Origin: a virus
Strand: one strand, 5' to 3'
IMG/VR virus record: IMGVR_UViG_3300032770_001058
Location: 1 to 59,006 of that record
Length of the DNA: 59,006 nucleotides
Of this stretch, positions 6,678 through 46,330 are shown piece by piece; within the stretch, counting starts at the first letter, position 1, and every line of letters begins with the position of its first letter. A program made the position numbers and the translations under genes. The notes below the pieces were generated by a model, which worked only from the letters and a program-made list of their open reading frames with translations, made no database searches and was not told the DNA's origin.

Positions 6678-7553
6678 ATGGCCAGCTCGAAGGCGGTTCC
6701 TGCACGATGTGCCGTAGCCTACCCAAACTTGATCCACTTCATTCAGCAGGGTGAACTTGACCGGCTGTTTGACATGGCGACCTCAGTATTGCTCCAACGA
6801 CGAGACGAGTGTGAGCGATCTGCGAAGCGGGCGTGGGATGAGTACGCGCACCGCCGAGATGAATTGAAAGCGCTCGGCGCGAGACTTGCAGAATTGGACG
6901 CCGGACTGCAAATCGAACCAGCCATTGAGGAAAGCACGTTCGATCCAAAGGAAGCAATGCGGTCTGTCGCTCACTCCGAATGCTCCGTCAAGGATCTTTA
7001 CATTCTTAAATCACTTATGGACGAACTTCGGATATTGGGCGTACACAAAGAAATTGAGATTGAGAGAAGCAACATTTTACGAGCGACTTTCCCCACCATC
7101 GATCCCAACCGGATGCACGCCGTCGCCTATATCGAGAAAGAGATACCATGGCTTCGGCTGGTATTCGGTTATCCTGCTATCGACGAATTACGCCTTATCG
7201 CGAATTGCATTAAACACTCTGGCCGAGTAAGCGGCCGGCTCGCGAAATGCCACCCAACTTGGCACTTCGGAACTGAGCTCAACGATGCCTACACTCGAGA
7301 ACATTGGACGACTGAGAGCGGTCCCGTGTGGGATTTCTCGACACGATTGGGAAGTGCGTACAAGCGACTCGCGCCTTTCGTGGGTGCCTACTTCGCGGAC
7401 CTCAGAGAGAAGTGTACGCGTCTTCGTGCCCTGCCGAACCACGCTTCGCAGTGCCGGTTTCTGTCCACATTCGCGTCAACATTAGCCGAAAACAACGCTG
7501 TGTACTCGAGATTCGTTACGGCGAGAACCACCAAGCCTGGAAATCAGGAGTGA
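6678..7553 (+). CDS. Cargo protein of unknown function, possible HEPN-like
   Basis: 291 residues, opposite in strand to the surrounding tail genes and clearly lower in GC, so probably acquired. The N-terminal third is a long helix (LLQRRDECERSAKRAWDEYAHRRDELKALGARLAELDAG). The middle contains FGYPAIDELRLIANCIKHSGRVSGRLA; an R..N..KH pattern like this occurs in several HEPN-type families, but the spacing is not the classic R-x4-6-H, so the match is weak. A GAGGTGAAA about 11 nt before ATG 6678 could be the ribosome-binding site. Its place among known defence genes suggests a phage-exclusion or abortive-infection role, which is inference only. Confidence 0.7.
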   Translation: MASSKAVPARCAVAYPNLIHFIQQGELDRLFDMATSVLLQRRDECERSAKRAWDEYAHRRDELKALGARLAELDAGLQIEPAIEESTFDPKEAMRSVAHSECSVKDLYILKSLMDELRILGVHKEIEIERSNILRATFPTIDPNRMHAVAYIEKEIPWLRLVFGYPAIDELRLIANCIKHSGRVSGRLAKCHPTWHFGTELNDAYTREHWTTESGPVWDFSTRLGSAYKRLAPFVGAYFADLREKCTRLRALPNHASQCRFLSTFASTLAENNAVYSRFVTARTTKPGNQE

Positions 7554-8236: not shown

Positions 8237-8800
8237 CTACTTACTGGTCGTACCCCAGGCGCCGTTCCAGTCCATGGTCCAGGCGATATAAGCCAAGCCG
8301 GTGTCGGCGGGATATTCGAGGCGCTGGTCGCGGTCGGTGAATCGGCGCTCGATGCGGCGCTGCAGGTCGGCGAGCCGGTTTTCGACGGAAATGGAGATGG
8401 TGGAGGTGTCCGTACCTTCGAGGATCGTCGGCTGGTCCATTCGGCCCGCGTAGCAGAGAATCGGCGCGTCCACGATATTGCCGGCGCTGTCAAAGAACGC
8501 CAGCCAGAATTTCACCGGTAGACCCTGCCGTACCTCCCTTAGCGCCTCCGAGAGCAGCCGATTGTCGACGCCGGAAAGCGAAATCGTGAAGGTCTGCGCG
8601 TTGAGCTGCGTATCCTCGGTGATCATCGAGACCTGGCCGAGCGTGCCGAGTCCCAGCCAGTTAAATCCGTTCCAGGCCAGCGGGCCGTAGCCGCTCCACA
8701 CGCGCTCGATGGAACTGAGGAAGTGGAGCTCGGCAAAGAGCGCACAGCGAATCTGGCACGCGACGGTCTGCGCCGCCGCCGCATCGGTCATATTGCGCAT
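8237..8800 (-). CDS. Minor tail / hub protein
   Basis: 187 residues. The pattern WNGFNWLGLGTLGQVSMITEDTQLNAQTFTISLSGVDNRLLSEALR, then GRMDQPTILEGTDTSTISISVENRLADLQR and RFTDRDQRLEYPADTG, is typical of a tail protein that precedes the DUF6950 gene in siphophages. In-frame ATGs are at 8800 and 8791, neither with a clear Shine-Dalgarno. The frame stays open a further 17 codons upstream (reading ...GSAASEPKTF) without a start codon before a stop. The original 5' end may therefore have been altered when the plus-strand cassette at 9042 was inserted. Confidence 0.75.
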   Translation of the reverse strand: MRNMTDAAAAQTVACQIRCALFAELHFLSSIERVWSGYGPLAWNGFNWLGLGTLGQVSMITEDTQLNAQTFTISLSGVDNRLLSEALREVRQGLPVKFWLAFFDSAGNIVDAPILCYAGRMDQPTILEGTDTSTISISVENRLADLQRRIERRFTDRDQRLEYPADTGLAYIAWTMDWNGAWGTTSK

Positions 8801-35564: not shown

Positions 35565-36440
35565 CTAGAGAGATGCAGGATTGGCATCCGACCATGTCCT
35601 CAGTTTCTCTGTCGTGCTCAGCGCGTATGGGAATGAGTGCAAAAGCAACCGTACCGACGAGGCAGATACGTTTGCATTCATCGGGTGAACTGCATCATTG
35701 CGTTGCGTACGGATTGCTTCAAAGAGTGACACCAGGTGAAGGGTAGCGCCTTCTGAGGCCGAGTAGGGAATCGGTGCGGGGTTACCGGAGGAAAAGTCTT
35801 CAATCGTCTTCTTCACACAATCCAAAAGTGAGAAGAGTTGCCGCTTGTTCAGCGCCGCTTCCAGTGTGGAGCGTCGGCGTGACGGTCTTAGCGCGTTCAC
35901 CAGAGATGCTGCGAGCAAATAGATCGCCTTCTCTGAGGCAGCTCCCACCATCACCGCCGCCGCAAAATATGCCTCACGGTTGAACGCCGTTAGAGCTTCC
36001 AAAATGTATTGCTCGATGACACCGTCTAGTGTGGGAACATGTTCTCTCAGAAACTTCATGTAACCTGTCACCTCTTCAGGGATAGGTTCGGCCCCTTTAA
36101 TCCATTGCAAGCCACGTTCCGTCCAGCAGTACCATTCCGAGCGCGAGAAATTTAAATAGTCACCGGTCGGTTTTGGGTAAACATACCCGGCATTTAATAA
36201 ATAGAAGAGCCCTTCGTGGGCAGCTTTCTGCAGATCTTCTGGGGCCTGTTCGTACAAATATTGTCGACCTGGATAGTGCTGGTGTGGCGAGGGCTTGATA
36301 ACGCCCGGATCATTGATGGCTTCCAACTTTCGCCAGAGACGTTGGAAAAATATCTTAGAGCTAAGTTCGCCCATCTGTTCACTGAATGATGCGCGGACTA
36401 ATTGAAGGACCCGTTCCACACTGTAGTCTGCTTTGCTCAT
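35565..36440 (-). CDS. HEPN-type protein, possible RNase/abortive infection factor
   Basis: 291 residues from MSKADYSVERVLQLVRASFSE. The C-terminal half has YFAAAVMVGAASEKAIYLLAASLVNAL, a helical HEPN/DUF4145-like pattern, and IRTQRNDAVHP, where R-N-D-A-V-H fits the R-x4-H motif of HEPN ribonucleases. The N-terminal half (YLYEQAPEDLQKAAHEGLFYLLNAGYV... WYCWTERGLQWI) resembles a winged-helix-like module. ATG 36440 gives the conserved protein; the longer reading to 36944 would cross the SOS-box-like sites. Lower GC than the phage genes. It lies just upstream of terS on the same strand and may be a lysogeny-time defence gene. Confidence 0.7.
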   Translation of the reverse strand: MSKADYSVERVLQLVRASFSEQMGELSSKIFFQRLWRKLEAINDPGVIKPSPHQHYPGRQYLYEQAPEDLQKAAHEGLFYLLNAGYVYPKPTGDYLNFSRSEWYCWTERGLQWIKGAEPIPEEVTGYMKFLREHVPTLDGVIEQYILEALTAFNREAYFAAAVMVGAASEKAIYLLAASLVNALRPSRRRSTLEAALNKRQLFSLLDCVKKTIEDFSSGNPAPIPYSASEGATLHLVSLFEAIRTQRNDAVHPMNANVSASSVRLLLHSFPYALSTTEKLRTWSDANPASL

Positions 36441-36512
36441 GACGCTATTTCTTTCGTTCGGTTCCGCCCAGTTTAGCTCCCATGTTCGCGTTGCAGCCAC
36501 CATGACCGCCAC

Positions 36513-36546
36513 CGAACAGGCGTTCGGCCCAGCGAACAGGCGTTCG
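36513..36546. promoter_or_regulatory. Two SOS-box-like palindromes
   Basis: CGAACAGGCGTTCG occurs twice (36513-36526 and 36533-36546), centres exactly 20 bp apart. Each is a palindrome of the form CGAAC-N4-GTTCG, which fits the LexA/DinR box known from Gram-positive bacteria. They lie between the HEPN-type gene (minus) and the early non-coding region (plus), where a repressor could control both. Whether the host LexA uses this motif is not known to me. Confidence 0.55.
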
Positions 36547-36587
36547 AAAACGTCTCCCGAAAACCCGCGCCGCGCGTGGATTGTCTT

Positions 36588-36616
36588 TTGGGACAACAGC
36601 CGAAAACGCATACAAA
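36588..36616 (+). promoter_or_regulatory. Candidate early promoter
   Basis: TTGGGA (36588-36593) and TACAAA (36611-36616) are 17 bp apart, each 4 of 6 to the sigma-70 consensus. The -35 lies inside a TTGTC...GACAA inverted repeat (36581-36595) and 41 bp downstream of the SOS-box-like sites. It would start the early transcript with a leader of about 700 nt. Motif match only. Confidence 0.3.
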
Positions 36617-36690
36617 CGCTGAGAAAAAAGGGATTGCGCGGCCTGCCGCCGGAGTCCCAGAATTCCCGCAGTTGTTTGGCTGTTTGGCAA

Positions 36691-36710
36691 GCGGCAACCA
36701 ACCGCAGGAG
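36691..36710 (+). repeat. Shine-Dalgarno hairpin, copy 1 (no gene after it)
   Basis: GCGG-CAACCAA-CCGC followed by AGGAG. The same fold precedes most early genes, but here no start codon with a real gene follows, so it may be a relic. Confidence 0.6.
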
Positions 36711-36743
36711 AACGGGAAGTGCGGCAGACGCGACGAAACCGAA

Positions 36744-36763
36744 GCGGCAACCAACCGCAGGAG
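36744..36763 (+). repeat. Shine-Dalgarno hairpin, copy 2 (sequestered)
   Basis: Identical to copy 1 (GCGG-CAACCAA-CCGC-AGGAG) but lies inside the 12-bp inverted repeat 36714-36725/36765-36776, which would place the AGGAG in a larger loop. No gene follows. Confidence 0.55.
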
Positions 36764-37236
36764 AGCCGCACTTCCCACCTACCTTGTGCCGCTGGCCACG
36801 GCGACCGTTCGAATCCCACAAACGGCGAAAGCACAGTTGCAACGCGCATCCTGTTCCGCTGGCCTTCGGGCCGGAACGGTAGCGATGCCTGCGCTGCGCC
36901 CTCGCCGCGCGTGTTCTGGCGAACGGTCGGGCTAAGGCTTTCACCAGTCGCTCTCGTCGCGGCGAATGCGGGCTGCGGCCATATCCGGCAGGCTGTACCT
37001 TCCCAAATCGCGTAGCAGGTGCCGATAACCCTGCGAACCCTAGCCTGAGGAACGGCTAGTCGGGACAACTCGAATCCCGGAAATCTCGGAGCGCGGCAAT
37101 CGCCACGATACGGCGCAGTTCAAGAGTTCCGCCCATGGCGGAATCGCCTACAAGGTCGCGGCGCAGTCAAAGAAGCGGCGCGCTAACGGTCATACCGACG
37201 AGACTAAGTGAGAAGAGCGCAAGCGACAAAAAACCT

Positions 37237-37302
37237 TCCCGATACTGCCTGATGAGAACGGGACGAAACCGGCCCACATGACAGTGTGGGCACGGTCGCA
37301 GT
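37237..37302 (+). ncRNA. Hammerhead ribozyme-like element A
   Basis: In order: TCCCG (37237-37241), stem I 5' ACTGC (37244-37248), core CTGATGA (37249-37255), G, AA, CGGGA (37259-37263), C, GAAA (37265-37268). Stem III pairs ACCG with CGGT, then GCCCACA with TGTGGGC, with one bulged A and a TGACAG loop. Then C17 (37297) and stem I 3' GCAGT (37298-37302). Every invariant hammerhead core base is present. CGGGA cannot form a local helix II but pairs with the upstream TCCCG. Predicted cut between 37297 and 37298, leaving a short 5'-OH leader for the first early gene. Needs an in vitro test. Confidence 0.8.
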
Positions 37303-37305
37303 TAA

Positions 37306-37325
37306 GCCGCAACCAGCGGCAGGAG
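37306..37325 (+). repeat. Shine-Dalgarno hairpin, copy 3
   Basis: GCCGC-AACCA-GCGGC directly joined to AGGAG, 9 nt before ATG 37335. After cutting by element A the mRNA would begin eight bases before this hairpin. Confidence 0.75.
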
Positions 37326-37334
37326 AATTCCGCG

Positions 37335-37856
37335 ATGACAAATAGTAGAGGTTCGCTCCGCTCGGTTTACACGGTGAAGCCGAAGTCGAATTCGAAGAAA
37401 TCCGCTTTCCGTCGCCAGATGGCCGCGCGGCACAGGGCACAGGATGCCGTGCCGACCAGCAAACCCGCAACCAGCCTGAAGCCGAAGAGCGCCGCGAATG
37501 GCTGGGATGACCCTGAAATCCGCGCAAAGCGGATTGCGGCCATTCGCGCCGCGCGCGCTGGTGTCACCGGCCAGCAGCCGACCGAAGAAAAGAAGATGCC
37601 GACTCCTCCGCCGCGTGACCCTGAGCTAGCTGCTGCTCAGGACGCGATCGCCAAGCATCAGTTCGCGATTCTGTCGAAGCTGCCTGCTGAAAGCGTGGTC
37701 AGGTATTACGACCTGGGCTGGCGTCATGCCCACCTGATGGAAGCGAAACCCGACCGCTGCCGACTCCGCTCGATTCCTGCCTACAGCCGCAAACCCGTCA
37801 CCTTCACTGTGCCGACTTCCGAAGTCGAGGCCTACAGCGCTCCCGCGACTGCCTGA
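37335..37856 (+). CDS. First early protein, WDDPEIR motif, function unknown
   Basis: 173 residues. The basic N-terminal third (VYTVKPKSNSKKSAFRRQMAARHRAQ) is followed by NGWDDPEIRAKRIAAIRAARAG (about 55-76), a motif shared with two other proteins in this operon. A C-terminal part (AAQDAIAKHQFAILSKLPAESVVRYYDLGWRHAHLMEA) is helical. The motif resembles short DNA-binding repeats (NUMOD3-like) in charge pattern, so nucleic-acid binding is a guess. ATG 37335 is fixed by AGGAG of the leader hairpin. Its stop TGA is part of the core of hammerhead element B, and the last residues PATA are encoded by the ribozyme's upstream strands. Confidence 0.8.
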   Translation: MTNSRGSLRSVYTVKPKSNSKKSAFRRQMAARHRAQDAVPTSKPATSLKPKSAANGWDDPEIRAKRIAAIRAARAGVTGQQPTEEKKMPTPPPRDPELAAAQDAIAKHQFAILSKLPAESVVRYYDLGWRHAHLMEAKPDRCRLRSIPAYSRKPVTFTVPTSEVEAYSAPATA

Positions 37857-37895
37857 TGAGATCGGGACGAAACCGGCAACTCGCCGGTCGCAGTC
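37841..37895 (+). ncRNA. Hammerhead ribozyme-like element B
   Basis: TCCCG (37841-37845), stem I GACTGC (37847-37852), CTGATGA (37853-37859), G, AT, CGGGA (37863-37867), C, GAAA (37869-37872), stem III ACCGGC/GCCGGT with an AACTC loop, C17 at 37889, stem I 3' GCAGTC (37890-37895). The GACTGC/GCAGTC pair differs from the AACTGC/GCAGTT of element D at the last pair on both sides. Predicted cut 37889/37890. It overlaps the end of the upstream gene. Confidence 0.83.
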
Positions 37896-37902
37896 ATTTC
37901 AA

Positions 37903-37922
37903 GCCGCAACCAGCGGCAGGAG
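37903..37922 (+). repeat. Shine-Dalgarno hairpin, copy 4
   Basis: GCCGC-AACCA-GCGGC-AGGAG, 7 nt before GTG 37930. Confidence 0.75.
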
Positions 37923-37929
37923 AACGATC

Positions 37930-38520
37930 GTGATTAAGAGGAACAAACCCGAAGAGCAGTTAATCCCCGCTGATCTGGACGCCATCGCGAAGAACGCCAT
38001 GTACTGGCAGATTGCCTCGCAGCATGCCGAGGAAATCTACAAAGAAGTGAAGGCTGACTTCTTCCAGCGCGTCGAGACTCACCCGCAAATTGAGATGGTC
38101 GTGGGCAAGAGCCTGAAAGTCTCCACCGGCAAGGTGCGCTGGCAGTCGCGCGAAAACTTCGACGTGCTCCAGGATGAGATCGAGAAGGCGCTGGAGTCGG
38201 GCCGCATCACCGTGCCTGTGCTGTTAGGAATGGTGAAGTCGTACGACACCGACGCGGTGCGCCAGTTCGTACCCGCTGCGGTCGTACCGAACGCGGAGAA
38301 GCCGGTCACCGAGTATGGCGTGATGGTCGCTTCGGCGGACTATAAGGCCGAAGTTCATGCCCAGGTCGATGAGCTGCTGAATCAGTCGCCCGCGCCTGCT
38401 GTGCTCCCGCCCAATGTCGCCGTGATGAAGCCTGCGGCCAGTGTGCCACTCACCGAGCAACTGGAAGCCTCGCTCGCCGATGCGAAGAAGAAACGCTCCC
38501 GCAAGCCCGCGACTGCCTGA
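37930..38520 (+). CDS. Early phage protein of unknown function
   Basis: 196 residues starting at GTG 37930, fixed by the leader AGGAG. LIPADLDAIAKNAMYWQIASQHAEEIYKEVKADFFQRVETHPQIEMVVGKSLKVSTGKVRWQSRENFDVLQDEIEKALESG is mixed helical and strand, then a flexible Pro/Ala-rich linker and a basic tail KKKRSRKPATA. The early-gene place and basic tail would suit a DNA-linked role, but no family is recognised. The stop codon lies inside hammerhead element C. Confidence 0.78.
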   Translation: MIKRNKPEEQLIPADLDAIAKNAMYWQIASQHAEEIYKEVKADFFQRVETHPQIEMVVGKSLKVSTGKVRWQSRENFDVLQDEIEKALESGRITVPVLLGMVKSYDTDAVRQFVPAAVVPNAEKPVTEYGVMVASADYKAEVHAQVDELLNQSPAPAVLPPNVAVMKPAASVPLTEQLEASLADAKKKRSRKPATA

Positions 38521-38563
38521 TGAGAACGGACCGAAACCGGCGACCCACTCGCCGGTCGCAGTC
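38505..38563 (+). ncRNA. Hammerhead ribozyme-like element C
   Basis: GCCCG (38505-38509), stem I GACTGC (38511-38516), CTGATGA (38517-38523), G, AA, CGGAC (38527-38531), C, GAAA (38533-38536), stem III ACCGGCGA/TCGCCGGT (8 bp, CCCAC loop), C17 at 38557, stem I 3' GCAGTC (38558-38563). In the proposed distal helix II, the U-A pair of A, B and D becomes G-C here (TCCCG/CGGGA versus GCCCG/CGGAC), with one C-A mismatch. Predicted cut 38557/38558. Confidence 0.82.
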
Positions 38564-38570
38564 AATTCAA

Positions 38571-38590
38571 GCCGCAACCAGCGGCAGGAG
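38571..38590 (+). repeat. Shine-Dalgarno hairpin, copy 5
   Basis: GCCGC-AACCA-GCGGC-AGGAG, 7 nt before GTG 38598. Confidence 0.75.
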
Positions 38591-38597
38591 AACGCAA

Positions 38598-39464
38598 GTG
38601 CAAGACACAAGCACCAATTACCGCTACTACACCGCCGAACCGCTCACCAATGACCAGCTTCGCCGCGTCGCGCCGTCCATCTTCGCCGAGCGGCCATGGG
38701 CGGAAATGTCTGACCGCTACACCTTCATTCCCACCATCCGCATTGTCGAGGAGATGCGTAAGGAAGGGCTGGTGCCCTATTTCGCCAAGCAGACGATCTC
38801 GCCTGTCGAAGGGCGGACCCCCTTTGCCATGCACATGATTCGCTTCCGCGATACGTCGCAACGCGGCCAGAAGCTGGTCGTCGGCGACTTGTATCCGGAA
38901 GTGACTCTCATCAACTCACACGATGGCGGCGCCAGCTACCGGCTGATGGCTGCTCTGCTGCGCGCGGCTTGCATGAACGGCCTGATGGTCAGCGATTCCG
39001 AGTTCGCGGCCATTCACGTCATGCATCGCGGCAACGTCACTCCCGTGCTTGAGGCCAGCTTCCAGGTCATCGAGCAGTTCCCGAAGATCATGGGCGAAGT
39101 GGGCGAGTTCCAGCGCATCGAGCTCAAGCGCGACCAACAACTGGCGCTGGCCGAATCGGCGCTGGAATTGAAGTACGACGAGCGGGACGATGGTTCGCTC
39201 GCCTGCCCGATCACCGCCGACGCCGTACTGATGCCGCGCCGCTCCGACGACTCGAAGCCCACGCTATGGAACACATACAACGTGGTACAGGAAAACCTGA
39301 TGAAGGGCGGCCAGCGCGGCGTCATCATCGGCGCGAATCACCGCACTCGCCGCGTCAAGACGCGTCCGGTGAAGGCGATTGCCACGGATGTCAAGTTAAA
39401 CAAGGCGCTGTGGACATTGACGGCGAGGATGGCCGAGTTGGTCGGCGCTCCCGCAGCCGCGTAA
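38598..39464 (+). CDS. DUF932 phage/plasmid-like protein
   Basis: 288 residues. LTNDQLRRVAPSIFAERPWAEMSDRYTFIPTIRIVEEMRKEGLVPYFAKQT... GRTPFAMHMIRFRD... LVVGDLYPEVTLINSHDGGASYRLMAALLRAACMNGLMVSD is the DUF932 (TIGR03299-like) pattern. These proteins are common in phage and plasmid early regions and are thought to be linked to DNA replication or recombination; the biochemistry is not known to me. GTG 38598 is chosen from the AGGAG; an in-frame ATG at 38520 would lie inside the ribozyme. It is followed by a plain hairpin rather than a ribozyme. Confidence 0.9.
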   Translation: MQDTSTNYRYYTAEPLTNDQLRRVAPSIFAERPWAEMSDRYTFIPTIRIVEEMRKEGLVPYFAKQTISPVEGRTPFAMHMIRFRDTSQRGQKLVVGDLYPEVTLINSHDGGASYRLMAALLRAACMNGLMVSDSEFAAIHVMHRGNVTPVLEASFQVIEQFPKIMGEVGEFQRIELKRDQQLALAESALELKYDERDDGSLACPITADAVLMPRRSDDSKPTLWNTYNVVQENLMKGGQRGVIIGANHRTRRVKTRPVKAIATDVKLNKALWTLTARMAELVGAPAAA

Positions 39465-39477
39465 TCATTTCGTCATG

Positions 39478-39503
39478 GCTGGCCCGCTCGCTCGCGGGCC
39501 AGC
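39478..39503 (+). repeat. 10-bp intergenic hairpin
   Basis: GCTGGCCCGC-TCGCTC-GCGGGCCAGC, perfect 10-bp stem with a 6-nt loop, between DUF932 and the next gene. No T run follows, so it is probably an mRNA stabiliser or processing site rather than a terminator. It occupies the place a ribozyme has at other junctions. Confidence 0.7.
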
Positions 39504-39542
39504 GCGACTCAAACCGCTGTACTACCGAATAGGAGAACGGTC

Positions 39543-39836
39543 ATGGCAAAGAAAAACGCAAACGGCTGGGACGACCCTGAAATCCGGCAGCGCCGCATCG
39601 ACGCAATCCGCGCGGCGCTGGCGAAGAAACCCGCAACGAAGAAGGCGAAGAAGGCCAGCAAGAGCAGCCCGAAGGCGAAGGCCAGCAAACCCGCGAAGAA
39701 GGCGAAGAAAGCCAGCCCGAAGCCTGCGGCGACTCAGGCGAAGCAGCAGCCCGACACCAAACTGGCGAAAGCGCTGCACACGCTCGAATCGCGCGTGAAG
39801 GTCACGCCCATCAACTCACTTCCCGCAACTGCCTGA
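39543..39836 (+). CDS. Lys/Ala-rich histone-like protein with WDDPEIR motif
   Basis: 97 residues. Residues 6-26 (NGWDDPEIRQRRIDAIRAALA) carry the motif shared by three early proteins. Residues 27-80 are a Lys/Ala/Pro-rich tail (KKPATKKAKKASKSS...) like histone H1 or bacterial nucleoid proteins, so it probably binds DNA or RNA. AGGAG lies 8 nt before ATG 39543, here without the usual hairpin. The end LPATA-stop is encoded within hammerhead element D. Confidence 0.8.
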   Translation: MAKKNANGWDDPEIRQRRIDAIRAALAKKPATKKAKKASKSSPKAKASKPAKKAKKASPKPAATQAKQQPDTKLAKALHTLESRVKVTPINSLPATA

Positions 39837-39876
39837 TGAGAGCGGGACGAAACCGGCCATCCGGCCGGTCGCAGTT
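39821..39876 (+). ncRNA. Hammerhead ribozyme-like element D
   Basis: TCCCG (39821-39825), stem I AACTGC (39827-39832), CTGATGA (39833-39839), G, AG, CGGGA (39843-39847), C, GAAA (39849-39852), stem III ACCGGCC/GGCCGGT (7 bp, ATCC loop), C17 at 39870, stem I 3' GCAGTT (39871-39876). Predicted cut 39870/39871. Confidence 0.84.
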
Positions 39877-39878
39877 AA

Positions 39879-39898
39879 GCCGCAACCAGCGGCAGGAG
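39879..39898 (+). repeat. Shine-Dalgarno hairpin, copy 6
   Basis: GCCGC-AACCA-GCGGC-AGGAG, 7 nt before ATG 39906. Confidence 0.75.
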
Positions 39899-39905
39899 AA
39901 CACCG

Positions 39906-41078
39906 ATGTTGGAACAACCGCTATCAGCCAGTCTCATCCTCACCAACGCCAAACACGATAAGGTCTTTCGCGCCTGGCTCATGCCGCAAGGCACGGGATG
40001 GGTGGTCAGAACCGAATGGGGCGCGCGCTCTGCCGGTAAACTCAGCTCGCAGGTGAAGCCCGACTCTCCGACGACCTATGAGGCCGCGAAGAAGATCTAC
40101 GACAAGAAAATCCGCGAGAAAACCGAGTTGCCGTGCTCCTGCGGCTGCGGCGACCGCTACCTGCAAACCCGCGTCGAAGCGGGCGAGCCGAAGCTGCAGC
40201 CGATCGATTGCACGGCGGCGCAGGCGGAGCAGGAACAGAAAGCCGAAGCTGTCGCTGGTCCGACAAGCTGGGCACCGCAACTGCTCGAACCCATCGAAGG
40301 AGAGCGCGGCAAGCTGCTGCTGGTCGGTGATGACCGCTACGGCGCGCAGGAGAAGTACGACGGTGTCTGTATTTCCCTATGGTGGGCGGAAGAGCAGCGC
40401 GCGCGCTGCTTCAACAAACTCGGCCAACTCCGCGACGTGCCCACCTACGTTGCCGACTCGCTGATCGCGCGCGCTCGTGAAGCCGAAGCGAAGTCATTTT
40501 GGGTTCACGGCGAGCTGCTTCCGAACGGCGGGCCGCTGGTCGTGCACGACCTGATGGAATGGAACGGCGACGATCAGCGCGGCGAAACCTATCGCGCACG
40601 CTTTGGGCTGGTCGCGACGTTCCTCGGCAACTGCCTGCATATCGCGATTCCGGAATTGATCACCGGAACGCATGCGAAGAGCGCGTTCGTCGCCGCACTC
40701 GCCGCGAAGCGGGCCGAAGGTGTCGTATTCAAGCGGCTCAATGCGCCGTACCTGCCCGGTCGTACGCAGCACTTCAAATTCAAATTCTGGCAGTCGGCCA
40801 CTTGCAAGGTCACTCCGAAGCGGAAGATCGACGGCAAGAATTCCCACGCCATCTCGGTGTTGCGCAAGGGGAAGCTGGTCGAAGTCGGCACCGTCACCGG
40901 CAAGAGCAGCGTACCGGCCCAGGTCGGCTCGCTGGTCGAAGTGAAATACCTTTATGTGGGTCATGGCGATCGCTTCGTGCAGCCCGAATTGCTGGGCCTG
41001 CGCGACGATCAGGCCCGGCCCGACGATTGGTCCACCCTCAAGCTGAAAGACACTCACCGGGAGGCGCGGTCATGCTAG
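39906..41078 (+). CDS. WGR domain - ATP-dependent DNA ligase fusion
   Basis: 390 residues. The first ~75 residues (ASLILTNAKHDKVFRAWLMPQGTGWVVRTEWGARSAGKLSSQ... TYEAAKKIYDKKIREKTELP) form a WGR domain, known to bind nucleic acid ends in PARPs and some ligases. A Cys-rich linker (CSCGCGDRY, about 77-84) follows. The ligase part has motif I QEKYDG (nucleophile Lys about 150), VHGELL (motif III region), EGVVFKRLNAPYLPGR (motif IV), and HFKFKFW (motif V). An OB-like C terminus follows (VGTVTGKSSVPAQVGSLVEVKYLYVG). It should seal nicks during phage DNA replication or repair. It overlaps the next small gene by 7 nt. Confidence 0.88.
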   Translation: MLEQPLSASLILTNAKHDKVFRAWLMPQGTGWVVRTEWGARSAGKLSSQVKPDSPTTYEAAKKIYDKKIREKTELPCSCGCGDRYLQTRVEAGEPKLQPIDCTAAQAEQEQKAEAVAGPTSWAPQLLEPIEGERGKLLLVGDDRYGAQEKYDGVCISLWWAEEQRARCFNKLGQLRDVPTYVADSLIARAREAEAKSFWVHGELLPNGGPLVVHDLMEWNGDDQRGETYRARFGLVATFLGNCLHIAIPELITGTHAKSAFVAALAAKRAEGVVFKRLNAPYLPGRTQHFKFKFWQSATCKVTPKRKIDGKNSHAISVLRKGKLVEVGTVTGKSSVPAQVGSLVEVKYLYVGHGDRFVQPELLGLRDDQARPDDWSTLKLKDTHREARSC

Positions 41079-41296
41079 TCCACGTCTTCCGCTTCCCCTC
41101 ACCCGAGCTTGACGAATGCGCGACGACCATAAGAGCAGCTATCCGCGCTCACTGGCGCCGGGAGATCACCTTCGCCGAATACCTGGCGGTGAGAGATGCT
41201 GCACATGCGAAGTGCGAGCATGTATTGCTCCGCATCTTTGCCGCCCTGGACCGCTCGGACGACCGGCCCGAGGTCTCCGAACGGCTGGCGGCATGA
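41072..41296 (+). CDS. Small early protein, unknown
   Basis: 74 residues (MLVHVFRFPSPELDECATTIRAAIRAHWRREITFAEYLAVRDAAHAKCEHVLLRIFAALDRSDDRPEVSERLAA), mostly helical. GGGAGG lies 7 nt before ATG 41072, and the gene overlaps the end of the ligase gene, implying coupling. Family not recognised. Confidence 0.65.
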   Translation: MLVHVFRFPSPELDECATTIRAAIRAHWRREITFAEYLAVRDAAHAKCEHVLLRIFAALDRSDDRPEVSERLAA

Positions 41297-41299
41297 CCT

Positions 41300-41357
41300 T
41301 CCCGCAACTGCCTGAGAGAACGGGACGAAACCGGCGACTCGTTCGCCGGTCGCAGTT
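41300..41357 (+). ncRNA. Hammerhead ribozyme-like element E, one core base missing
   Basis: TCCCG (41300-41304), stem I AACTGC (41306-41311), then CTGAGA (41312-41317) instead of CTGATGA, G, AA, CGGGA (41321-41325), C, GAAA (41327-41330), stem III ACCGGCGA/TCGCCGGT with a CTCGT loop, C17 at 41351, stem I 3' GCAGTT (41352-41357). Everything is kept except core position 7, which is deleted. It does not overlap a coding end. It is likely slow or dead and is a natural control for A-D. Predicted cut, if active, 41351/41352. Confidence 0.72.
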
Positions 41358-41359
41358 AA

Positions 41360-41379
41360 GCCGCAACCAGCGGCAGGAG
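41360..41379 (+). repeat. Shine-Dalgarno hairpin, copy 7
   Basis: GCCGC-AACCA-GCGGC-AGGAG, 6 nt before ATG 41386. Confidence 0.75.
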
Positions 41380-41385
41380 AACGCT

Positions 41386-41547
41386 ATGAGATGCCCGTTT
41401 TGCCACGGTGAGATCGACGAGCAATACAGCCTGCTCGATCAATGCCAGCGGTTAGAGCAGGAACGCTGGCAGCGCGAATTCGACGCCGGACTCCGGCGAT
41501 TGGTCGAAACCGTCGATAAAGTCATGGCCAAAGTCGGCCACGCATAG
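41386..41547 (+). CDS. Small protein with CPFCH zinc-finger-like start
   Basis: 53 residues: MRCPFCHGEIDEQYSLLDQCQRLEQERWQREFDAGLRRLVETVDKVMAKVGHA. One C-x-x-C pair and nearby H could bind zinc, perhaps as a dimer; the rest is one helix. Start fixed by the leader hairpin. Unknown function. Confidence 0.65.
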   Translation: MRCPFCHGEIDEQYSLLDQCQRLEQERWQREFDAGLRRLVETVDKVMAKVGHA

Positions 41548-41593
41548 GCGCTGTGCTGTATCTCGGCCAGCAATAACTTCCACCTTCAACAAA

Positions 41594-41614
41594 GCTGCTT
41601 ACTCGCAGCAGGAG
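41594..41614 (+). repeat. Shine-Dalgarno hairpin, copy 8 (stem changed)
   Basis: GCTGC-TTACTC-GCAGC-AGGAG, 7 nt before ATG 41622. The C-G pair of other copies is T-A here, so pairing is kept while sequence changes. No ribozyme precedes it. Confidence 0.7.
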
Positions 41615-41621
41615 AATTCAT

Positions 41622-43349
41622 ATGTCTACGACAACAGTTGCAGTCCTGCCTGTAAACCGAAAGAAAGCCGACGCGCTGGACGTTCAGATGCTGCCGATCG
41701 GCGTCCTCACCCTCTCCGAAACCAATCCGCGCTCCGGGATGGACGCAACCGAGCTCGACGAGCTGGCCAAATCTATTCTCGACCACGGAATCCTGCAGCC
41801 GCTGGTCGTGCGGCCACATCCAGGCGTCGTCGTGGTGGAGTCCAGCGTCCCGGGCCGCTGGTATGCCGCTTATGAGAACGGCACCGACCATCCCAATCTG
41901 ATCGGCACCGGCCACGAAAAGAAGGCAGAGGCTGAGGCCGAAGCGGCTGGCATTCGCCGCTGGGAGATCATCGCCGGCGCGCGGCGCTATAAGGCCGCGA
42001 AGCTGGCGAAGCTGCGCGAGGTTCCATGCCGCATCGTGCGCGTTAGCAATCAGGAAGCGCGCGACATTCAGATCATCGAAAACCTGCAGCGCACCGACAT
42101 TCACCCGCTGGATGAAGCCGAAGCTTTCGTGCAACTGCTCGGCTCAAGCGGCGACATCAAGGCTCTGGCGAAGCGCGTTGCCAAGCCTGAACTCTATGTG
42201 CGGCGCCGTCTCTCCCTGCACGAGTTGATCGAGCCTGCGAAGAAGGCGTTCCGGGAGCATCGCATCTTCCCGGGCCACGCCTATCAACTCAGCCGATTCC
42301 CGACGAACGCGCAGAAGGCAGTCTGGAAGCAGTTAGAGGGCAAAGACGTCACCCCCAATCAACTGCGCAAGGCCATCGCCGACAATTTCACCCTGAAACT
42401 GTCGGGCGCGCCATTCGATACCGGCGATGCGAAGCTGCTCGAAGCGGCGGGAAGCTGCACCGACTGCCCGAAGCGCACCGGCAACAATCCGCTGCTGTTC
42501 TCCGACATCAAGGCGGCCGACACCTGCACCGACCGCGACTGCTACAGCCGTAAGGTGGAAGCCCATCTCGTGCAGATCGCAACGAAGCTGGAAAAGGCCA
42601 GCGGGAAGCCGGTCCTGCGTCTGTCGGAGAAGTTCCAACCAACCATCAAGGGCGCGCTCTCCAGCGGCCAGTGGCATCGCTGCGACCGCGCGTCAGAATG
42701 TGCTCATGCGCAGCAAGGCATCATCGTGGAGACCGATTATTACGGCTCCGGCCCGAAGAAGCTGGGCCAGACGATCACCGTCTGTGCGACGAAGGAGTGC
42801 AAGTTTCACTTCGGCTCGCACACTGGGGAGTCGGCTGAGTCGATGCAGGAGCGGGAGCGCACGAAGCGCCGCGTGGTGAAGCAGAAGGTCGGGGTCAATA
42901 AGGCCGTCTTTACCGCCGTGCAGGAGAAGATGCCCGGAGTCCTGGGCGCCGAAGAGCTGCGCCTGATCGGGCGCGAACTGTTCCAGCGCGTTTACGGGCC
43001 TTATCGCAATCGCATCGCCCGCGACGTGTACCAGCTCGAACCCAAGATCGTGAAGAGCCACTACGTCACGACCGGCGGCACGACGAAGGATTACGCCGCT
43101 GCGCTGCTGGCGAAGCTGCCGGAGATGAACGCGAAGGAACTGACCCGCTTCTGCCTGATCTCGCTTACCGCGGGTAACGCCTACACTCCGCCGCTGTACA
43201 CCAATTCCAGCGCCGAGCCGGAGAATCCGCTCTACACCCTCGCCAAACTCTACAAGGTGGACGCTCGTTCCATCCGCGAGAAGATCGTCACCACTGATCG
43301 CGAGAAGGCGAAAGCAAAGAAGGCGACGAGAGCCGCGAAAGCCGCTTAA
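41622..43349 (+). CDS. ParB/RepB/Spo0J-like protein, long phage form
   Basis: 575 residues. The ParB N-terminal domain is clear: LPIGVLTLSETNPRSGMDATELDELAKSILDHGILQPLVVRPHPG, WEIIAGARRYKAAKLAKLREVPCRIVRVSNQEARDIQIIENLQRTDIHPLDEAEAF, then an HTH-like AKRVAKPELYVRRRLSLHELIEPAKKAF. The C-terminal 350 residues contain a Cys cluster (CTDCPKR... CTDRDCYSRK, about 283-308; more Cys near 349 and 389) that may bind metal, and a helical end. Such long ParB-like proteins are common in phage early regions and may act in DNA replication or as nucleases rather than in partition. Confidence 0.88.
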   Translation: MSTTTVAVLPVNRKKADALDVQMLPIGVLTLSETNPRSGMDATELDELAKSILDHGILQPLVVRPHPGVVVVESSVPGRWYAAYENGTDHPNLIGTGHEKKAEAEAEAAGIRRWEIIAGARRYKAAKLAKLREVPCRIVRVSNQEARDIQIIENLQRTDIHPLDEAEAFVQLLGSSGDIKALAKRVAKPELYVRRRLSLHELIEPAKKAFREHRIFPGHAYQLSRFPTNAQKAVWKQLEGKDVTPNQLRKAIADNFTLKLSGAPFDTGDAKLLEAAGSCTDCPKRTGNNPLLFSDIKAADTCTDRDCYSRKVEAHLVQIATKLEKASGKPVLRLSEKFQPTIKGALSSGQWHRCDRASECAHAQQGIIVETDYYGSGPKKLGQTITVCATKECKFHFGSHTGESAESMQERERTKRRVVKQKVGVNKAVFTAVQEKMPGVLGAEELRLIGRELFQRVYGPYRNRIARDVYQLEPKIVKSHYVTTGGTTKDYAAALLAKLPEMNAKELTRFCLISLTAGNAYTPPLYTNSSAEPENPLYTLAKLYKVDARSIREKIVTTDREKAKAKKATRAAKAA

Positions 43350-43477
43350 TCGCCGCGCGGGCCTGCCCCGCGCGCTCTGCTTCTCCTCTTCGAGCCCGAT
43401 GCCTCCGCAGTAGCGAGAGCCAGTGCCGCAATGAGAAGCAGGGCGCGGACGGCAGGACCGCCGTACGCAACTAACGG

Positions 43478-44032
43478 TTATTCGTTCGGGAACCTGAAAC
43501 GTCCCAATTGTTCAGACACAGAACTGAATGACTTTCCGCCACTGACTGTTTCCCGCGCTAACAACGCGGTCTTTTCACCGCAGTCAATCCAGACCCTCTG
43601 CCAAACCACATCAACGTCGGTGTTAGTGTGGGTGTCAGTCCGTACAGTACATTTCGCAAACCCCTCGTCGTTCAAGTGGGTGATTAGGCCGTAAAGAGCT
43701 TCAGCCGTGTCATCATTAGGGGTGGTCCATCGACGCTCCGCAAAGGTAAGCAATCCGCGCGTAAATTGCATGGTGGGCAAGTCTCGTCCTGCCTTAATAT
43801 CGTCCACGGTTCCCAACCACAACTCGTCATCATCCGGTTTCATTAGCTGCTGTCCGGCCAACTTCTCCGCGACCTGGGCCTTTGTCATTCCTAAACGTAA
43901 CTTCACTCCGCCTATTTCGATCGCGGTTCTGCTTAACTGCTGGGAGGGCTGCTTTTGTGCGTGTAGAAGCGGCGGACATATACAGCAGAGCACGATTGCG
44001 GTCGTCGAAATTGCGCGTTTCATGTTGTTCAC
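43478..44032 (-). CDS. Exported protein of unknown function (cargo)
   Basis: 184 residues. MNNMKRAISTTAIVLCCICPPLLHAQ is a signal peptide, likely cut after HA. The mature part (SRTAIEIGGVKLRLGMTKAQVAEKLAGQQLMKPDDDELWLGTV) resembles small envelope proteins with an SmpA/BamE-like start (G-M-T-x-x-Q-V), then LTFAERRW and two Cys. Opposite strand within the early region and lower GC, so acquired. Confidence 0.65.
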   Translation of the reverse strand: MNNMKRAISTTAIVLCCICPPLLHAQKQPSQQLSRTAIEIGGVKLRLGMTKAQVAEKLAGQQLMKPDDDELWLGTVDDIKAGRDLPTMQFTRGLLTFAERRWTTPNDDTAEALYGLITHLNDEGFAKCTVRTDTHTNTDVDVVWQRVWIDCGEKTALLARETVSGGKSFSSVSEQLGRFRFPNE

Positions 44033-44087
44033 CTTATTTTGACGGAAGCGGACACATGCTACACCTCGCTTTCGGCAATGAGAACAC

Positions 44088-44735
44088 CTATGTCTGCGGC
44101 TGGAGATCGTCTACCTGCCGCTCATAAACCGTGTCTAATCTCAAGGTGAGGGCGAAGATATGCACTGCGATGCTTAGCGCGTCGTTGGGCGCAAGCGGCT
44201 GGTGAAGCAACGGCACGACGAAGTTGATGTTTTGTCCCGCTGCTTGGAGCCGACCTAAGGCGGATTCGATCTGGTTAGCCAGTTCCACTTGAAAGGCCGC
44301 AGTAAAACGGCGTTTCCAGTCGGCCTCGTTCTTGTCCATCTCGATTTTCTTGGTCGGATTGGCTGTTCGCCCCGAAATTGGAATCGGCCCGTTCTTAGCT
44401 ACGAAATCAACGGTACACTCGCGTATCGTTGCGCACATCATTACTGCTTCCCGCTTTACCGTTCCATCCCGCCCAATCAACCGTTCTGCGTTCTGAAAGC
44501 GCCGATAAATAACGTCTGCCATTCGCCACCCCAAAAAGCCAACGAAAAGCGCAGTTCCCCACCACGGCGACAGAAGGTGCAAGTGGCTCATGAGCACCCT
44601 CTGTGCGCCGCTGACTAGCCCCAATACAGCCCAGGCTGCTCCGCTGAGGATGCCAACCAAGAAAATTGTGTCTCGGTAATCTTGGCGAGAATGTCTAAAT
44701 GCTTCGGTGAATACCGACCAGTAGAATCGCAGCAT
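44088..44735 (-). CDS. Two-helix membrane protein (cargo)
   Basis: 215 residues from MLRFYWSVFTEAFRHSRQDYRDTIFLVGILSGAAWAVLGLVSG. Two membrane helices (about 22-40 and 55-72), then a cytoplasmic part with CATIRECTVDFVAKNGPIP and a long C-terminal helix. ATG 44735 is chosen over 44864 because the extra part would overlap a phage leader hairpin on the other strand. Family not recognised; lies back to back with the exported protein and may be a pair with it. Confidence 0.6.
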   Translation of the reverse strand: MLRFYWSVFTEAFRHSRQDYRDTIFLVGILSGAAWAVLGLVSGAQRVLMSHLHLLSPWWGTALFVGFLGWRMADVIYRRFQNAERLIGRDGTVKREAVMMCATIRECTVDFVAKNGPIPISGRTANPTKKIEMDKNEADWKRRFTAAFQVELANQIESALGRLQAAGQNINFVVPLLHQPLAPNDALSIAVHIFALTLRLDTVYERQVDDLQPQT

Positions 44736-44840
44736 ATCTGGCGATTGTAATGCGCCAGTGGAAAACGAGAATGGCCCACACCCAGTAAGCCTCTTCAGTT
44801 TCTCGACTGAGGCGGCGGCACTATAATCGAGATTCCACAA

Positions 44841-44861
44841 AGCGGCAACCAGCCGCTGGAG
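44841..44861 (+). repeat. Shine-Dalgarno hairpin, copy 9, with a six-codon ORF
   Basis: AGCGGC-AACCA-GCCGCT followed by GGAG and, 10 nt later, ATG CCA GCC GCT AAA GCT TGA (44871-44891), a six-residue ORF (MPAAKA). It is either the leader of a deleted gene or a leader peptide. Stem bases differ from other copies but pairing is kept. Confidence 0.55.
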
Positions 44862-44889
44862 CATCCCTAATGCCAGCCGCTAAAGCTTG

Positions 44890-45000
44890 ATCTCCGTCCG
44901 TGCGACTCCGCGCGTGCGGAGCGTGAACGGGGGTGGTACCCTGCCAAGCCCGCTACGTCAAGGCGGGAAGCCGTAGGCCGCGTTCGCGCGGCCTGCGCAC
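44890..45000 (+). ncRNA. Structured RNA candidate upstream of the AAA ATPase
   Basis: Hairpins in sequence: CTCCGC-GCGT-GCGGAG (about 44909-44924), GGGT-GGT-ACCC (about 44932-44942), CCCGC...GCGGG (about 44949-44968), whose loop base run CTACG can pair with CGTAG about 25 nt on (a pseudoknot), and AGGCCGCG-TTCG-CGCGGCCT (about 44977-44996). The run GGGAAGCC followed by a strong UUCG hairpin recalls the 3' end of TnpB/OrfB-linked RNAs, but no tnpB is present. It could also be another processing element, as it takes the ribozyme's place. Class unknown. Confidence 0.4.
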
Positions 45001-45006
45001 TTTTAA

Positions 45007-45026
45007 GCGGTCACCAACCGCAGGAG
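45007..45026 (+). repeat. Shine-Dalgarno hairpin, copy 10 (stem changed)
   Basis: GCGGT-CACCA-ACCGC-AGGAG, 6 nt before ATG 45033. Stem differs from GCCGC/GCGGC but stays fully paired. Confidence 0.72.
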
Positions 45027-45032
45027 AACGAG

Positions 45033-45926
45033 ATGCGTCATCAGGAGATATTTGACTCCGACCCTCAGTCCGAGATGGACCTGGGCCAACCCAAACAGAA
45101 TGCCATCCAGTTTCCCGTCACTCTTGCCGAACGCTACCAGCCGCGCCACATCGCCGAATTCATCGGCTTAGAACATCCCAAGCGGCTGCTCACCAACCTG
45201 ATCGCCAAGCCTCGACCATGCCCTCTGCTCTTCATCGGCCCGCCTGGAGCTGGGAAGACCGCGATGGGCGTGACCTTCGCGGTCGAACTACCCGGCGCGC
45301 TGCACCATGTCAGCGCGCAAAAGTGCGATGTCGCGGCACTGGACGCGCTGGGCGAGAAATTCTCCTACATCCCGCCCAGGGGCCGATTCTGGATTTCGCT
45401 GATTGACGAAGCCGACCAAATGACCGAGAAGGCGCAACTGCAACTGCTATCCCGCTTGGATGGGACAGCCGCACTGCGGCCGGTATTCGGTGGCGGATTT
45501 GAACGCGGCGAGCCGTTGCCGATCATCTGGATTTTCACGGCTAACGGTCGAGGGTCAAAGCAGATAGAGCCGCCATACAGTTTCGCGTCCCGCTTCCTCT
45601 CGCGCTGTATGATCGTGCCCTTCGAACTCCCGACTCAGGCTGAACTCGCCGCGTATCTGCGCAAACTGTGGGAATTGGAAGGCGGTGGGCCGACGCCCGC
45701 CGACTATTTCGACTACATCGCCGACGACTGCGCTGTCCGCGATGCCCTGATGAAACTCGAAGTCGATCTGCTGGCCGGCCCGCGCGCGCGACCTGTGCCG
45801 GAGATCACCGACCAGCCTCAACCGAAACCGGTAACTTGTGACCGAGGAGCAAACCAATGGGACGACCCGGAAATTCGCAAACGCCGAATCGAAGGAATCC
45901 GCGCGGCTATGGCGAAAAGAAAGTAA
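45033..45926 (+). CDS. AAA+ ATPase (clamp-loader/RuvB-like) with WDDPEIR tail
   Basis: 297 residues. AERYQPRHIAEFIGLEHPKRLLTNLIAKPRPCPLLFIGPPGAGKTAMGVTFA: N-linker, then Walker A GPPGAGKT (about 69-76). LIDEADQM (Walker B, about 124-131), IFTANGRG (sensor 1), SRFLSRCMIVPFELP (arginine finger region). It resembles RFC/RuvB-type motors that load or remodel proteins on DNA. The last 25 residues (NQWDDPEIRKRRIEGIRAAMAKRK) repeat the motif of two upstream proteins, which suggests a shared partner. It overlaps the DUF523 gene by 70 nt. Confidence 0.88.
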   Translation: MRHQEIFDSDPQSEMDLGQPKQNAIQFPVTLAERYQPRHIAEFIGLEHPKRLLTNLIAKPRPCPLLFIGPPGAGKTAMGVTFAVELPGALHHVSAQKCDVAALDALGEKFSYIPPRGRFWISLIDEADQMTEKAQLQLLSRLDGTAALRPVFGGGFERGEPLPIIWIFTANGRGSKQIEPPYSFASRFLSRCMIVPFELPTQAELAAYLRKLWELEGGGPTPADYFDYIADDCAVRDALMKLEVDLLAGPRARPVPEITDQPQPKPVTCDRGANQWDDPEIRKRRIEGIRAAMAKRK

Positions 45927-46330
45927 TTCTCGTCGCCGCTTGCCGCATGGGCGAATGCTGCCGGTTTCACGGGCGTGTCGTCGAGTCCCCTGCGGTCGAG
46001 AGCGCCCTGCGAGTCTTACCGAATGTGCCAGTCTGCCCCGAAATGGCCGCTGGCCTGGGCTGCCCGCGCGCAGCCACGCACAAGCGCAAAGGCCGCCACT
46101 TCTGCGGCGACGTCGATGTCACCGAGCTGCTGCAGCGGACCTGCGCTAAGCTGGCCGCAAAGTACGCCGAGTCGGCCGCGTACTACATCGGCGTTCGAGG
46201 CTCACCGACTTGCGACCCGCAGCACGGCATCTTTACTGCTGCTCTGCGTCGGCTTGGGGTGCCGTCGCGCCTGAGCGTGCGGCCTGGTGATCGCGAAAGC
46301 GCTGCTCACCCGAATTTGCCATTCGGGTAA
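45857..46330 (+). CDS. DUF523 family protein (TudS-like)
   Basis: 157 residues. VAACRMGECCRFHGRVVESPAVESALRVLPNVPVCPEMAAGLGCPR, then GDVDVTELLQ and YYIGVRGSPTCDPQHGIFTAALRRLGV match DUF523: Cys near 29, CPEM (60-63), D-V-T, and S-P-T-C (116-119) in place of SPSCG. The family includes thiouracil desulfurases with an iron-sulfur cluster bound by three Cys. Here those would be C29, C60 and C119. GAGGAG lies 7 nt before ATG 45857, inside the end of the AAA gene. The 3' end overlaps the convergent PP-loop gene by 98 nt. A role in sulfur-modified nucleotides is possible. Confidence 0.8.
   Translation: MGRPGNSQTPNRRNPRGYGEKKVILVAACRMGECCRFHGRVVESPAVESALRVLPNVPVCPEMAAGLGCPRAATHKRKGRHFCGDVDVTELLQRTCAKLAAKYAESAAYYIGVRGSPTCDPQHGIFTAALRRLGVPSRLSVRPGDRESAAHPNLPFG

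Follow-up and report, generated by a model that had tools for sequence, protein, structure and literature searches.

Putative Compact Pseudoknot Hammerhead Ribozymes Between the Early Genes of an Uncultivated Phage

The DNA considered here is a single viral record from an uncultivated phage (IMGVR_UViG_3300032770_001058), all 59,006 bases of which were analysed and are referred to below as the window. It holds five small hammerhead ribozyme elements (A–E), all on the + strand and of which A–D are intact, at the start of a rightward block of + strand genes, where the five lie within 4.1 kb between early genes. The reading that we prefer, to which we give a probability of about 0.7, is that A–E are compact type I pseudoknot hammerheads, the intact copies of which would split the rightward early transcript co-transcriptionally into translatable mRNAs of one or two genes. 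The identity of A–D as hammerhead ribozymes is well supported, at the level of sequence, by their cores, their stems, a covarying pseudoknot and their relatives. The splitting of one early transcript is the best-supported role that we infer for them, the observations beneath it being the sequence, the pairing, the covariation, the placement at gene boundaries, the stop codons in the core, and the relatives in other phages.

Core, Stems and Predicted Cut Sites

The window was searched for the structural arrangement CTGANGA, GAAA, stem III, UH and stem I, which returned A–E; the same search on both strands of 100 dinucleotide shuffles returned no elements (minimum 5 bp in stem I and 3 bp in stem III, with a G10.1–C11.1 pair required). 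A–D fit the pattern CTGATGAG-N7-CGAAAC (CTGATGAGN7CGAAAC) exactly, and allowing up to two mismatches gave one other match to the core pattern in the whole window (shuffles: mean 0.52, maximum 3). The elements are as follows.

37237..37302, + strand: Hammerhead A; pseudoknot strand 37237-37241, stem I 37244-37248/37298-37302, core 37249-37255, loop II 37256-37264, GAAA 37265-37268, stem III 37269-37295, U16.1 37296, C17 37297 (predicted cut 3′ of C17)
37841..37895, + strand: Hammerhead B; pseudoknot strand 37841-37845, stem I 37847-37852/37890-37895, core 37853-37859, C17 37889
38505..38563, + strand: Hammerhead C; pseudoknot strand 38505-38509 (GCCCG), stem I 38511-38516/38558-38563, core 38517-38523, C17 38557
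39821..39876, + strand: Hammerhead D; pseudoknot strand 39821-39826, stem I 39827-39832/39871-39876, core 39833-39839, C17 39870
41300..41357, + strand: Hammerhead-like E; U7 missing from the core (CTGAGA, 41312-41317), otherwise complete; C17 41351

The conserved pairs A15.1–U16.1 and G10.1–C11.1, as well as C17, are present in all five elements, and the catalytic unpaired bases are invariant in A–D. Stem II amounts to one G-C pair, which closes a loop of 7 nt. Five of the six stem I pairs never change, and the outermost is A-U in two elements (D, E), G-C in two others (B, C), and lost in A; stem III keeps its first three pairs constant, and beyond these it differs in length and in sequence yet stays paired. 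An earlier note, made from the sequence alone, had placed five elements on this strand, with the hammerhead core in the right order and spacing, an A-U pair at the start of stem III, four complete copies and a cut after each of the C17 positions listed above, and in these respects the pattern and structural searches agree with it, down to the incomplete fifth copy (CUGA-GA). The same note held that both stems vary while remaining paired, which is so for the distal part of stem III but not for stem I, which barely varies.

With a model built from the elements themselves, Hammerhead A scores 68.1 bits, and a search of the window for more copies with this model gave none above chance. Element E probably cuts poorly or not at all, because it is without U7, which stacks on C3 in the pseudoknot hammerhead whose fold and catalysis have been solved (Zhan 2024; PMC11300833; PDB 8YDC).

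A Pseudoknot Between Loop II and the 5′ Strand

Loop II carries CGGGA, which is complementary to a UCCCG sited 0–2 nt 5′ of stem I. The resulting pseudoknot would have 5 bp in A, B and E, 6 bp in D, and four of five pairs in C, where there is one C × A mismatch with the loop and a compensatory change of the outer pair from U-A to G-C. In phage relatives, loop II and the 5′ strand covary (CCGGG/CCCGG, CTTGG/CCAAG, CTAGG/CCTAG, CTGGG/CCCAG, CCTGG/CCAGG), and the complementarity summed over ten relatives with different loops was 51, compared with a permuted mean of 33, a value that 0 of 5000 permutations attained. A tertiary contact from the stem I region to loop II is predicted, then, from pairing and from covariation alike.

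Because this pseudoknot covaries in the phage relatives, the elements can be placed with the pseudoknot hammerheads (RAGATH-1), of which, judging by predicted pairing, they are a form without helix IV. The RAGATH motifs were reportedly described by Weinberg and colleagues in 2015, and the ribozyme of the solved structure appears, from its described layout, to be RAGATH-1 (PMC11300833). Just one relative with the same short layout was found (L006), which scores 40.4 bits with the model built from A–E. An antisense match to anti-hemB in the window (19.8 bits compared with 49.5) was rejected as chance.

Leaders and Stop Codons Around the Predicted Cuts

All five elements lie between genes or at the start of the operon, and 3′ of each come a common leader and a start codon. 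The constant leader 3′ of each predicted cut comprises GCAGU(U/C), a short spacer, the hairpin GCCGC-AACCA-GCGGC, AGGAG and the start codon, with 34–40 nt from cut to start.

37303..37325, + strand: Leader A; hairpin 37306-37320, AGGAG; start codon 37335
37896..37922, + strand: Leader B; hairpin 37903-37917, AGGAG 37918-37922; start codon GTG 37930
38564..38590, + strand: Leader C; hairpin 38571-38585, AGGAG 38586-38590; start codon GTG 38598
39877..39898, + strand: Leader D; hairpin 39879-39893, AGGAG 39894-39898; start codon ATG 39906
41358..41379, + strand: Leader E; hairpin 41360-41374, AGGAG 41375-41379; start codon ATG 41386

There are four leader-like copies without a ribozyme (at 36689, 36742, 44840 and 45005), in which the hairpin is re-paired (GCGG...CCGC, GCGGU...ACCGC, GCGGC...GCCGC), and this re-pairing speaks for the hairpin of the leader as such. 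For the ParB-like gene, the corresponding position is taken by an unrelated hairpin (GCTGC-TTACTC-GCAGC-AGGAG, 41594-41614), and two viral contigs with the same leader hairpin (L016, L017) hold no hammerhead.

In the cores of three elements, the UGA within CUGAUGA is the stop codon of the upstream gene: in B at 37854-37856, in C at 38518-38520, and in D at 39834-39836. The upstream open reading frames (ORFs) of all three end in ...PATA, encoded by the pseudoknot strand together with the 5′ strand of stem I; element E keeps the same letters, but out of frame of the gene in front. With the upstream stop codon already in the core, cutting after C17 would never truncate an ORF. Boundaries of similar kind occur in relatives: the stop of a DUF932 gene occupies the three bases of the stem I 5′ strand that adjoin the core (L048); a twister ribozyme begins directly after a DUF932 stop (L027); and an ORF runs as far as the first base of a RAGATH-1 hammerhead (L141). 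In open-access full texts there was no report of core stop codons or of such a form of cassette, which is weak evidence, since subscription papers lay mostly outside that search.

A Proposed Route from One Transcript to Several Messages

During transcription, each intact copy would fold into stem I, the 1-bp stem II, stem III and the pseudoknot, in which the pairing of loop II with the strand 5′ of stem I would keep stems I and II side by side, and the folded copy would then cut itself 3′ of C17. The upstream mRNA would have a complete ORF with its stop codon and, as its 3′ end, the stem III hairpin with a 2′,3′-cyclic phosphate, which would protect the message; the downstream mRNA would begin with a 5′-OH and the constant leader, the hairpin of which abuts the Shine-Dalgarno sequence (SD). 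By four such cuts, one long early transcript would become one-gene and two-gene messages. Cutting is what would be expected from the conservation of the elements, together with experiments on other phage arrays (PMC3088659), and the products would presumably be stable and translated, to the benefit of the phage.

Relatives in Other Phages

Matches to the core pattern were found in 11 viral contigs: the stem search identifies nine of these as full hammerheads, and Rfam matches a tenth (L005) to RAGATH-1. The relatives above the Rfam RAGATH-1 cut-off are L005, L007, L010 and L011, and also G015, with two copies, and G016. Two core-pattern matches in bacterial and archaeal genome contigs (L098, L099) have no stems and are not hammerheads. 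A broader core pattern added only a few further hammerheads, including a tandem pair of RAGATH-1 hammerheads that flank one 74-codon ORF (L141). In L011, two hammerheads lie within about 120 nt.

Among 80 DUF932 loci from other viruses, the structural search found a hammerhead in four, always on the strand of the gene. In two nearly identical loci (L048/L049) hammerheads flank DUF932 on both sides, in L065 there is one upstream, and in L027 one downstream. L048/L049 and L065 share a leader of their own (CCCTTAAACGCTTAA), which makes theirs a different ribozyme-plus-leader cassette. In L027, it is a twister-P5 ribozyme (6817-6874) that directly follows the DUF932 stop, the hammerhead lying 1.6 kb further along the same contig, at 8407. 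On the − strand of L014, a pistol ribozyme (6890-6952) and a RAGATH-1-like hammerhead (6475-6540) are about 0.4 kb apart. Taken with the window, these twister and pistol relatives suggest that what phages select at gene boundaries may be cutting as such, not any particular ribozyme.

Weighing the Explanations

Several observations count against self-processing of the early transcript by A–E. In the window, every Rfam family stays below its gathering score; the best, RAGATH-1, scores 26.5, 25.9 and 25.8 bits compared with a gathering score of 56.3, and the match spans model positions 24 or 26 to 77 only. The helix IV and the A-rich linker of the solved pseudoknot hammerhead are absent from the elements, E is without U7, and the pseudoknot of C is weakened. 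The nested minimum-energy folds of A, D and E pair the pseudoknot strands at the cost of stem I, a result that is ambiguous, because a nested model is unable to represent the pseudoknot and stem I together. Ribozymes beside DUF932 are sporadic, given the count by hammerhead search above (4/80) and an Rfam scan of 40 further DUF932 loci, which gave no ribozyme. Furthermore, the DUF932 gene of the window is followed by an ordinary, perfect 10-bp hairpin (GCTGGCCCGC-TCGCTC-GCGGGCCAGC, 39478-39503), without a U-run, instead of a ribozyme; thus, not every boundary would be cut.

Active ribozymes could also serve mainly for regulation linked to translation: the ribosome that ends the upstream gene would cover the core, and the cut would be made only when translation is slow or over. 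This would account for the upstream UGA inside the cores of B, C and D, for 5′ strands that encode ...PATA, and for the likewise compact boundaries of stop and ribozyme in L048, L141 and L027. However, CUGA includes UGA, which provides a stop in one frame at no cost, and the arrangement may simply be a compact boundary; moreover, there is no long ORF upstream of A, and E does not overlap the stop of the gene in front but lies just beyond it. We consider this explanation unlikely. In a related proposal, which is doubtful, a minimal pseudoknot hammerhead without helix IV would be gated by the ribosome, such that termination at the core stop times the splitting of the operon and each product receives a standard leader, the whole being a protein-free cassette.

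It is quite improbable that the repeats are sequences associated with boundaries or starts, for phage recombination or for translation initiation, in which the hammerhead is passive or decaying. The hairpin/SD leader does recur, with as many as nine copies of which four lack a ribozyme, it is better conserved than the variable parts of the ribozyme, and E has a deletion in its core; on the other hand, the unpaired catalytic bases do not change in A–D, and stem III and the outer pair of stem I vary yet stay paired. In addition, unrelated phages place other ribozyme classes at similar sites, which argues for selection for cutting rather than for one sequence. As for transcription terminators or attenuators, with which a G+C-rich stem III between genes would agree, there is no U-run 3′ of stem III, a terminator scan does not include any of the five stem III hairpins among its terminator-like sites, and termination has no use for the conserved CUGAUGA and GAAA; for want of U-runs we reject the terminator reading, and the chance that the hairpins have such a function is very small.

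The significance of the window lies in what a single operon offers: near-identical cassettes of ribozyme and leader, a natural core mutant (E), a weak variant (C), leader-only controls and core stops. The presence of all of these together makes both the processing hypothesis and the link to translation testable in one operon.

Genes and Other Features of the Window

The record is that of a tailed phage. To the left of about 35 kb, the − strand encodes the terminase, portal, head protease, major head protein and tail genes; the rightward + strand block has DUF932, ligase-like, ParB-like, clamp-loader-like, ParA-like, methyltransferase and helicase genes. The genes around the elements are the following.

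37335..37856, + strand: gene between A and B; no family match; ends ...PATA-stop inside the core of B
37930..38520, + strand: gene between B and C; no family match; ends ...PATA-stop inside the core of C
38598..39464, + strand: DUF932 gene, after C (PF06067, phrog_12094)
39543..39836, + strand: gene for a small Lys/Ala-rich protein; ends ...PATA-stop inside the core of D
39906..41078, + strand: gene after D; weak match to ATP-dependent DNA ligase (phrog_114, E 5e-5)
41386..41547, + strand: small ORF of 53 codons, after E; no family match

A coding motif (approximately NGWDDPEIR..RI.AIRAA) is common to three genes of the region (37494-37561, 39558-39625, 45849-45916), which suggests a small paralogous family of phage proteins. 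The proteins encoded at 37335-37853 and 39543-39833 had no match in Pfam or PHROGs, relatives of the ligase-like and ParB-like genes were sought without result, and phage records searched at the DNA level for distant similarity yielded no relatives.

Hairpins directly 5′ of AGGAG are found at 17 of 63 + strand sites of the window, compared with 1 of 44 − strand sites; many such sites lie in the operon region 36400-46000, adjoining start codons. Before element A, at 36689-36764, two leader-like copies (AAGCGGCAACCAACCGCAGGAGA) are 53 bp apart, and the second, which has GCGACGAAACCG 5′ of it, is possibly a decayed ribozyme cassette.

Comparison with Known Systems

RAGATH-1 (RF03152) and the elements of the window have in common the type I layout, the 1-bp stem II (G10.1–C11.1), a 7-nt loop II pseudoknotted to the 5′ strand, and the same core. 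They differ in the distance from the pseudoknot strand to stem I, which is about 9–15 nt in RAGATH-1 and 0–2 nt in the elements, where there is neither helix IV nor an A-rich linker. The twister (RF02684) and pistol (RF02679) ribozymes of L027 and L014 occupy the same kind of site, directly after a stop codon or between small phage genes, but have different folds, and neither is present in the window.

Tandem hammerheads in a phage operon, regarded by the earlier note as not established, had in fact been described by Perreault et al. 2011 (PMC3088659). In the part of that paper on which we draw, multiple hammerheads flank single genes or short blocks of genes in prophages, transcript processing is proposed for them, and, among the arrangements of two and three ribozymes that were tested, cleavage was seen in vitro for three tandem arrangements and, on expression in Escherichia coli, for one. 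A 2017 review still called the biological role of such tandem phage hammerheads open. The window resembles those arrays in having several hammerheads on one strand that flank phage genes. It is unlike them, as far as that part of the paper goes, in having five near-copies of one ribozyme, a constant hairpin/Shine-Dalgarno leader, and upstream stop codons in the core. Beyond the earlier note, the analysis adds the loop II pseudoknot, the core stop codons, the common hairpin/SD leader, the leaders without ribozymes and the bracketed genes in other phages. Thus, whereas tandem phage arrays have been known since 2011, what is new here is an unusually regular array of a stripped-down ribozyme, the core of which often holds the stop codon of the gene upstream.

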